DNA of 64,000 nt. Origin: Desulfobacteraceae bacterium Eth-SRB1 (GTDB lineage: Bacteria; Desulfobacterota; Desulfobacteria; Desulfobacterales; ETH-SRB1). A model generated the notes under the pieces. It had not been told where the DNA came from and made no database searches. It saw only the letters and a list, made by a program, of their open reading frames with translations. The position numbers and the translations under genes were made by a program. Below are positions 33,345-36,025 of the stretch, in pieces (positions within the stretch are counted from its first letter, which is position 1; each line of letters opens with the position of its first letter). The stretch is taken from positions 811,127-875,126 of the forward strand of contig RPGP01000040.1 of assembly GCA_004193555.1 (NCBI GenBank). Reading direction: 5' to 3'.

Positions 33345-34514
33345 TTACAATCCTGCTTTTTTTTTCATAATATCCGCCATATTTGTTTTTTCCCATGTAA
33401 ACTCCGGTTCATTGCGGCCAAAGTGTCCATAAGCCGATGTTTTTCTATAGATAGGTCGCAGGAGATCAAGATATTCGATAATTGCGGCAGGTCTCAAATC
33501 AAAAACCTCGGTAATAATTTCTTTAACCCTTTTTTTTGGTATAATTCCTGTGCCTTTAAGATCTAACATAATAGAGATCGGTTGTGCCACACCGATTGCA
33601 TATGCAACCTGCAGTTCACACTTTTTTGCAAGGCCTGCGGCAACGATATTTTTTGCAATATGCCTTCCCATATACGATGCGCTACGGTCAACCTTGGATG
33701 GGTCTTTTCCCGAAAAGCATCCGCCTCCATGACTTCCCTGGCCGCCGTAAGTATCAACTATAATCTTTCGACCCGTAAGACCGCAGTCTCCCATCGGCCC
33801 GCCAAGGATAAACTTGCCTGTGGCATTAACAAAATATCGGGTATCACCATCGGTCATCTCCTTTGGGATTACCTTCTTTATGACCTCTTGAATAATAGCT
33901 TCTTTTAGCTCATCGTGGGAAATGTCCGGTTTGTGTTGAGCGGCGATTACAACCGTATCAACCCGTTTTGGAGCGCCGTTTTCATATTCGATGGTTACCT
34001 GGGATTTGCCGTCGGGTCTTAAGAAATCAAGAGCCCCGTTTTTCCGGACAGTGGCAAGACGTTTGGTAAGCTTGTGAGCAAACATAATCGGCATGGGCAT
34101 CAATTCCGGAGTTTCATCACAGGCAAATCCAAACATAAGACCCTGATCTCCCGCTCCCTGATCCTTGAACAGCCCCTGGCCCACATTAACCCCCTGGGCG
34201 ATATCGGGAGATTGATGATCAATGCTGGTTATGACCGAACAGGTTTGCCAGTCAAAGCCCATCCGGGATGAATGATATCCGATATCACGTATTGTCTCCC
34301 TGACAATCTCAGGCATGTCAACATAACATTCTGTTGTGATTTCGCCGGCAATAAAGGCCAGTCCGGTTGTAACAAGAGTTTCACAGGCAACCCTGCAGTT
34401 TTTATCTTTTTCAATAATGGCGTCCAGTATGGAATCCGATATAGCGTCGGCAACTTTGTCCGGATGCCCTTCTGTGACCGATTCAGACGTAAAAAAGAAT
34501 TGTTCATTACTCAT
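33345..34514 (-). CDS. metK: S-adenosylmethionine synthetase
   Basis: Makes SAM from methionine and ATP. The 389-residue protein has [20 protein letters not shown] at the N-terminus, [16 protein letters not shown] (ATP-binding signature) and [15 protein letters not shown] (second signature). Start 34514 has GGAGACAC upstream. No SAM riboswitch was recognised in the 226-base upstream gap, which instead holds an AT-rich repeat (TTTTAATTCCTCAATTCC, also near 31780). Confidence 0.97.
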
Positions 34515-34740: not shown

Positions 34741-35589
34741 TTACTCCGGATTCAGTATCATATTGTCGATCAGACGGGTTTCGCCCATTTTAACAGCAAG
34801 CGCCATCAGCGCCGGCCTGTTGATTGTTTCCATATCCGCAAGGGTTTCGGGATCACAGATTGAAATATAATCTATATTAGTCCCCTCATTGGATTTTATC
34901 AACCCTGAAGCTGCATTAATGATACTTGCCGCATCATTGACGCCGCCTTCAAGAAGTTCCTGAGCTTTTTTTAATGATTTGTATATGCAAAGAGCATTAA
35001 TCCTCTGCTCTGGCGTAAGGTAACTGTTTCTTGAGCTCATGGCAAGCCCGTCAGGCTCCCGCAGTGTCGGAACGCCAACAATATTTATTTCGAAATTCAG
35101 ATCGCGCACCATCCGGCGTATGACAATAAGCTGCTGATAATCCTTTTCACCAAATACAGCGATATGAGGTTTTACAAGGTTAAACAGTTTTGTAACAACT
35201 GTTGCAACCCCTTTTAAAAATGTGGGTCTGGAAATCCCGCAAAGGTGGTTTGGCAGTTTTTCCAGTTCAATATATGTTTGGAAATTCCTGGGATATAACT
35301 CCTTCCCGTCCGGGATAAAAATTACATCTGCCCCCTCTTTTTGCGCTAATTCAAAATCCCTGTCAAGGTTTCTGGGGTATGATTCAAAATCTTCTCCAGG
35401 GCTAAACTGGGCAGGATTGACAAAAATGCTTACAATTAGATTGTCTCCAAGCTCACGTCCTTTTCTGATAAGCGACAGATGCCCTTCATGCAAAAAACCC
35501 ATGGTTGGAACAAAGGCAATTGTTCTGCCAAGGCCACGCATCAGGTCGGAGTGTTCCTGCATTTCTGTTAATTTGGCAATTACTTTAAT
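34741..35589 (-). CDS. panC: pantoate-beta-alanine ligase, probable ATT start
   Basis: Joins pantoate and beta-alanine with ATP to give pantothenate. Motifs: FVPTMGFLHEGHLSLI (HIGH-like), FVNPAQFSPGEDFESYPR, VFGEKDYQQL, MSSRNSYLTPEQR. The first ATG (35562) has no Shine-Dalgarno and lies 9 codons inside the expected N-terminus. In the same frame ATT at 35587-35589 has GAGG 8 bases upstream and would give MKVIAKLTEMQEHSDLMRGL, putting 26 residues before VPTMG, as in E. coli PanC, and about 282 residues in all. No ATG, GTG or TTG is available nearer. The upstream tiny ORF ends about 20 bases before it. Confidence 0.93.
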   Translation of the reverse strand: MKVIAKLTEMQEHSDLMRGLGRTIAFVPTMGFLHEGHLSLIRKGRELGDNLIVSIFVNPAQFSPGEDFESYPRNLDRDFELAQKEGADVIFIPDGKELYPRNFQTYIELEKLPNHLCGISRPTFLKGVATVVTKLFNLVKPHIAVFGEKDYQQLIVIRRMVRDLNFEINIVGVPTLREPDGLAMSSRNSYLTPEQRINALCIYKSLKKAQELLEGGVNDAASIINAASGLIKSNEGTNIDYISICDPETLADMETINRPALMALAVKMGETRLIDNMILNPE

Positions 35590-35608
35590 AGTCTGTGCCT
35601 CAAATAAA

Positions 35609-35755
35609 TTATTCTGTCTTATCTTTTGCTTTCTTTTTTTCTGTCAACTGACAGGCGTTCCGCATTCAGGTGGAAATACCAAGCTTCGGCAGAATATAAA
35701 ACTGCGTGAGAAAATAGAAACCGATAATCAGCAGTATAATTATTGTTGATTTCAT
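35609..35755 (-). CDS. candidate 48-residue membrane selenoprotein (in-frame TGA)
   Basis: ATG 35755 has a strong GGAGG site. The frame encodes MKSTIIILLIIGFYFLTQFY (one membrane helix) then ILPKLGIST, meets TGA at 35666-35668, and reads on as MRNACQLTEKKKAKDKTE to TAA 35609-35611. On the minus strand CTGTCA-GT-TGACAG follows the TGA with the apical GT 17 bases downstream, within the spacing and loop rule (GU in apical loop) described for bacterial SECIS elements. The hairpin is followed by A's, not T's, so it is not an intrinsic terminator. A U....C pair would result. The alternative is a plain 29-residue peptide ending at TGA. Reading through would place the stop about 20 bases before the panC ATT. 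Confidence 0.5.
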
Positions 35756-35827
35756 TTATCCTCCAATTTAAAAAATTTTCTGGATATTTTCTGAGTCATT
35801 AAGCTCTTTTCTCTTTCGTAAGACTTC

Positions 35828-36025
35828 ACGGAACGTTTAAATTAGAAATTAGGCCTTCACGCTTTTGTAGCGTTGATGAACACATCAAAGCCGCGCCAGA
35901 CCATATCTGATAACGTTTCTGCCGGCTTGTAAACATCAGCTCGCAAACTCGTTTCATCTCTCACAATTTCAAGTTTCCAATTTCAAGTTTCAAGCCGTCA
36001 AGTTTCAAGCCGTGAATGGCTACGA
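35828..36025. repeat. dispersed intergenic repeat, copy B
   Basis: Shares with 8950-9250 the left block (TTCACGRAACG...ATTAGAAATTAGGCCTTCACGCTTTTGTA.CGTTGATGAAC) and the right block (TTTCCAATTTCAAGTTTCAAGCCGTSAA..GGCTA). The right end block is partly duplicated (TTTCAAGCCGTCAAGTTTCAAGCCGTGAATGGCTA). Confidence 0.6.

Follow-up and report, generated by a model that had tools for sequence, protein, structure and literature searches.

Probable AUC, AUU or AUA start codons of panC in most genomes of the Desulfobacterales

RESULTS

The panC locus of Desulfobacteraceae bacterium Eth-SRB1

The window analyzed here is a stretch of 64,000 nucleotides from contig RPGP01000040.1 of Desulfobacteraceae bacterium Eth-SRB1. 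Its minus strand carries panC (34741..35589), encoding pantoate--beta-alanine ligase (pantothenate synthetase), followed downstream by metK for S-adenosylmethionine synthetase (33345..34514), which has an ATG start. A small ORF (35609..35755) lies upstream of panC on the same strand. The panC product matches TIGR00018 with 326 bits against a cut-off of 212.75 and over practically the full length (profile positions 1-282 of 283), and PF02569 with 349 bits.

We propose that panC starts at an ATT codon (AUU; 35587..35589, minus strand), from which the product has 282 residues. The leader reads TTTGAGG-CACAGACT-ATT-AAA-GTA-ATT-GCC-AAA-TTA-ACA-GAA-ATG-CAG on the minus strand. Its Shine-Dalgarno (SD) motif GAGG (35598..35601, minus strand) stands at a spacer of 8 nt from ATT and is kept in relatives, often as GAGGTG. 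Upstream, an in-frame TGA (35644..35646, minus strand, by direct reading) closes the panC frame, and the window sequence holds no in-frame ATG, GTG or TTG between this TGA and the ATG at 35560..35562. This inner ATG, which is Met 10 of the panC product and lies nine codons 3′ of ATT, has no SD and is not a conserved start. In the read-through protein the ATT codon supplies residue 11, on which position 1 of the TIGR00018 profile falls, and the next codon supplies residue 12, the counterpart of residue 2 in an alignment with the solved PanC structure 2ejc. Hence the preliminary description, which had placed the start at ATT and not at ATG 35562, is borne out by the start of the profile, by the SD and by the codons of relatives given below. 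Its particulars, namely GAGG 8 bases upstream, 26 residues between the start and the VPTMG motif, and a sole in-frame ATG nine codons inside the gene without a ribosome site, were all correct on re-reading. As far as sequence can confirm a start codon, that of panC is confirmed.

A selenoprotein candidate upstream of panC

The small ORF is a candidate selenoprotein gene for a product of 48 residues with a single helix. It has an in-frame TGA at 35668-35666 and a SECIS-like hairpin at 35654-35641, and with TGA read as selenocysteine its product is MKSTIIILLIIGFYFLTQFYILPKLGISTUMRNACQLTEKKKAKDKTE. The window and 20 of 21 other loci examined (L100, L386-L389 and L391-L405, but not L390) have a motif P(K/R)(L/M)G(I/V)ST with an in-frame TGA behind it, and a conserved protein of about 50 residues ending in ...YILPKLGISTUMR(N/D)ACQ(V/L)T recurs across the order. 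In nearly all of these loci a hairpin of the CUGUC-AGNU-GACAG type follows soon after TGA, with compensating changes, while L397 has a different predicted fold. The position and loop of the hairpin match the bacterial SECIS as described in PMC13188914. The genome of the window also contains selB. On contig C40 the selB family is represented by two genes that pass the cut-off and by a third, apparently split one (1193695-1195587, 942309-944207 and 940029-941887).

The small ORF matches nothing in Pfam and nothing in NCBIfam above the cut-off, and none of the families in Table 1 of PMC13188914, compared by description only and within the text available, fits it. The small ORF probably represents an undescribed family of small selenoproteins. 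In the sister species (G016) its distance from panC, again on the upstream side, is about 0.4 kb; the remaining genomes examined carry it on another contig or well away from panC. The suggestion in the preliminary description that the panC start may be coupled to this ORF was therefore dropped, since the ORF is not tied to panC in relatives. Farther upstream, about 45 bases (35814-35860) match many dispersed places at about 81-96% in the genome of the window and in other genera of the family, as in a REP-like interspersed repeat.

The start codon of panC across the order and the phylum

Among bacterial genes, AUU, AUC and AUA starts count as rare exceptions, of which that of the IF3 gene is the textbook case. 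We denote these three codons AUH and number codons backwards from the V of VPTMG, so that the start position is codon -26, 26 places before this residue. The first panC search gave a match in 234 of 291 genomes of the order and later searches added further matches. The sample comprised one panC locus from each of 182 genomes (58 families, 110 genera), taken among the best-scoring matches listed, and distant panC genes are under-sampled in it.

An alignment of relatives, as proposed in the preliminary description, showed AUH at codon -26 in 136 of these 182 genomes among the best-scoring matches listed. ATC was the commonest form (87 genomes), followed by ATT (37) and ATA (12). ATG (29), GTG (6) and TTG (6) together account for 41 genomes, and the remaining five, with other codons, each have a canonical start nearby. 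By family, 37 of the 58 were AUH throughout, 8 were mixed and 13 had none. In the family of the window, ATT occurs in the sister species, and ATC or ATT in seven genomes of genus g2; seven genomes of g3 have ATC or ATT at -26 together with an ATG three codons upstream (-29), which they probably use. At one locus (L140, G051) a similar GGGGTGATAGCC leader precedes a GUC in the place of the panC start, and its start is perhaps GTG -29 or the GUC.

In 39 of the 136 AUH genomes a canonical codon stands in frame a few codons upstream (-32..-21): twelve of these are a GTG at -29 within the GAGGTG of the SD, seven are the ATG -29 of g3 and the rest are mixed. The other 97 genomes, without ATG, GTG or TTG in codons -32..-21, constitute our core set (40 families, 68 genera). 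Pairing energy between the SD region and the 16S tail averaged -8.36 before the AUH codon in the core genomes, compared with -4.99 before the ATG starts of 29 genes of the order, -5.31 before those of 30 outgroup genes and -4.03 (sd 0.20) in shuffled windows.

Among 40 genomes of the phylum outside the order (37 families, for the most part a single genome per family chosen from the better matches), codon -26 was ATG in 30, GTG in 5 and AUH in 2, and in the other 3 an ATG lay 1-3 codons away. The two AUH cases, ATT in G662 (L315) and ATA in G505 (L310), are isolated, have strong SDs and are possibly independent gains. A panC search at class level added no further order.

Control genes of the order were read in the same manner. 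metK began with ATG in all 29 readable loci of relatives (30 examined, one without the motif) and panB in all 26 readable loci (30 examined, four without the motif). Thus, as far as three control genes tell, AUH is not used loosely in these genomes. The third, infC, had ATA in 29 and ATC in one of 30 loci (L326-L355), every one with an SD, in a sample that included the sister species and left out the window's own genome. The predicted start class of panC is that of infC, the gene of IF3 itself.

Codon -26 thus holds an AUH codon with an SD at a working distance and without a canonical start in its place, and the codon class is kept across the lineage. A near-cognate AUH start is best read as an order-wide trait of panC, wider than a one-gene oddity, and panC is, by its sequence, a new, order-wide addition to the small class of AUH-started bacterial genes.

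Persistence of the AUH codon and neighbouring genes

A real AUH start need not have a regulatory role, as an ancestral ATG may have been lost and the loss tolerated through the strong SD. We regard this as a serious possibility, if not a favoured one. The strong SD is in accordance with it, and few changes of state suffice: a tree of 55 rows requires 6 changes between AUH and canonical codons, beside 7 interchanges among AUC, AUU and AUA, and these counts do not give direction. However, a single change of the third base would restore ATG, yet the interchanges stay largely among the three AUH codons. AUC is also over-represented at the start. AUC, AUU and AUA numbered 67, 25 and 5 at the core panC starts and 103, 131 and 71 among other Ile codons in -25..-1 of these genes (chi-square p 2e-9); with one genome per genus the numbers were 48, 16 and 4 compared with 81, 84 and 51 (p 5e-6), although related genomes are counted and these p-values are too small. 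The interchange within AUH, the few changes to or from canonical codons and the codon bias suggest that selection keeps the AUH codon.

Gene order also bears on this question. panC and metK are adjacent in this order in most genomes examined, and linkage was found in 62 of 65 AUH genomes and in 17 of 39 canonical ones, leaving 22 canonical genomes unlinked (Fisher p 3e-9, uncorrected for kinship). In other words, the canonical codon occurs in 22 of 25 unlinked but in 17 of 79 linked genomes, which argues against the absence of a role, though 14 of these 22 belong to one family and a contig break may make the two genes look 'unlinked' in a fragmented genome. Of the 113 genomes in which metK was sought, the linkage table covers 105; G003, G012, G022, G023, G030, G039, G070 and G272 stand outside it because of genes that were missing, incomplete or at the edge of a contig, and G041, with a panC-metK gap of 735 bp, was classed as 'near' and stands outside the Fisher test. 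Linkage to metK as the sole cause of AUH was rejected, because 17 linked genomes are canonical and linkage is hence not sufficient.

Coupling to the end of the upstream gene gave no clear rule and was likewise set aside. Of the loci with sufficient DNA on the upstream side, 45 of 95 in the core AUH set and 26 of 41 with canonical codons had an open frame on the same strand that was 55 codons or longer and ended within -12..120 bp. No riboswitch or other known RNA was detected upstream of panC at gathering thresholds in 6 loci.

Start sites other than the AUH codon

Translation could begin farther upstream in frame, at ATG -29, GTG -29 or beyond, in which case the AUH codon would be an ordinary internal Ile codon. 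The 39 AUH genomes with a canonical codon at -32..-21, the ATG -29 of g3 among them, speak for such a start, Ile is tolerated at -26, and an internal Ile codon would likewise be expected to exchange freely among AUC, AUU and AUA. The codon bias at -26, unlike that of other Ile codons, the SD and the closed upstream frames oppose this reading. The 97 core genomes have no such codon, and in 17 of them a stop codon stands at -28. From the upstream stop to codon -18, 68 of the 97 have no ATG, GTG or TTG at all, while in 29 one occurs at -18 or -19 or in the part of the open frame that lies farther upstream. In five genomes (G032, G101, G137, G235 and G062) such codons are absent all the way from the upstream stop to the active-site VPTMG, and the panC frame is open through the gene. 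An SD 4-mer lies 4-12 nt before the AUH codon in 92 of 97 core genomes, and the GTG -29 cases are inside the SD.

The pattern of substitutions points in the same direction. Across 57 within-genus pairs, codon positions 1, 2 and 3 showed 159, 176 and 178 differences in the eight triplets upstream of the AUH codon, 44, 56 and 124 in codons -25..-18, and 36, 38 and 114 in codons -16..-9. Codon-type substitution sets in directly after the AUH codon and is absent upstream of it. On this evidence we consider a farther upstream start improbable.

Still less probable is a start at the inner ATG (35562; codon -17), with the stretch upstream of it as an untranslated leader. Of the 97 core genomes 85 have this ATG, and it is the choice expected of gene finders restricted to ATG, GTG and TTG, so that a panC annotation with this restriction would come out nine residues short here. 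Yet it is missing in 12 of the 97, and an SD 4-mer at the same spacing occurs before it in none. Codons -25..-18 vary as coding sequence does, and both the TIGR00018 profile and the solved structure begin at the AUH codon. Moreover, outgroup genes with ATG at -26 mostly carry the inner Met as well, which marks it as a conserved residue and not as a start. The preliminary description had also considered relatives with an ATG start at 35562 and nothing conserved upstream; this case fails, as the DNA from one codon to the other shows conservation at the protein level.

We give very little credence to a second initiator tRNA whose different anticodon reads AUH codons. GGGCTGATAACCC and similar strings are present in some genomes, but the initiator-tRNA pattern occurred with anticodon CAT only in the genome of the window and in its sister, a pattern search of the window's genome found no variant initiator tRNA, and ARAGORN found no tRNA at five loci with non-CAT strings. 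A sequencing or assembly error turning ATG into ATT, which the preliminary description had allowed for and which at first sight would concern one genome only, is refuted by the ATT of the sister species and the same codon class throughout the survey.

DISCUSSION

Our data make it highly probable that panC in most of the Desulfobacterales is started at an AUH codon, AUC being preferred to AUU and AUU to AUA, by fMet-tRNA(CAU) and with a strong SD that enables initiation. According to this model, the ordinary fMet-tRNA(CAU) would pair with bases one and two of AUH and be mismatched at base three, and the unusually strong and well-placed SD would allow initiation at such a codon. In E. coli, pcnB also has an AUU start, which limits its expression. 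The two genes are alike in that both stand outside translation initiation and have a start of the AUU class; panC differs in the order-wide occurrence of its AUH start, in its neighbour metK and in its codon preference.

GUG and UUG starts are, like AUH, weaker than AUG, but they are common and mismatched at the first base, whereas AUH is mismatched at the third. PMC5622118 reports that non-AUG starts in general are accompanied by stronger SDs, and the strong SD before the panC AUH codon fits this compensation. The same study gives only 1 of 61,358 ancestral AUG starts as changed to AUU. No report of a non-AUG panC start was found in the open PMC literature, which is weak evidence of absence.

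The closest parallel is infC of E. coli, which encodes IF3, has an AUU start and is autoregulated by IF3 (work cited in PMC9845219). Both genes have a near-cognate AUH start that is conserved lineage-wide. However, panC encodes an enzyme of the coenzyme-A pathway and not a translation factor, it has no obvious direct feedback loop, and AUC predominates at its start; infC of the order itself has AUA or AUC in place of the AUU of E. coli. In the in-vitro work of PMC10158994, IF3 admitted no pairs but Watson-Crick ones at the first two bases and rejected weak pairing at the third, and fMet initiation at AUU with CAU dropped with rising IF3. By analogy with infC and this in-vitro work, it is plausible that AUH starts hold expression down or are monitored by IF3, as the preliminary description suggested.

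If so, selection may hold the AUH codon for its weak, IF3-sensitive initiation, and PanC output would be low, at a level governed by the stringency of initiation and below that of MetK, and would fall as IF3 activity rises. One simple use may be a low ratio of PanC to MetK, given by a weak panC start beside the ATG-started metK. We put forward only tentatively, as a possibility, that panC and infC form an IF3-gated set in this order, with the panC start selected against AUG across about 40 families.

The panC case argues for scanning for more genes of the IF3 class. An order-wide AUH start in a biosynthetic gene, where the three AUH codons interchange and AUG is largely avoided, would be a natural experiment on the use of weak initiation. 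If IF3 does gate panC, the supply of pantothenate, and hence of coenzyme A, would track the state of the translation-initiation machinery in these bacteria.
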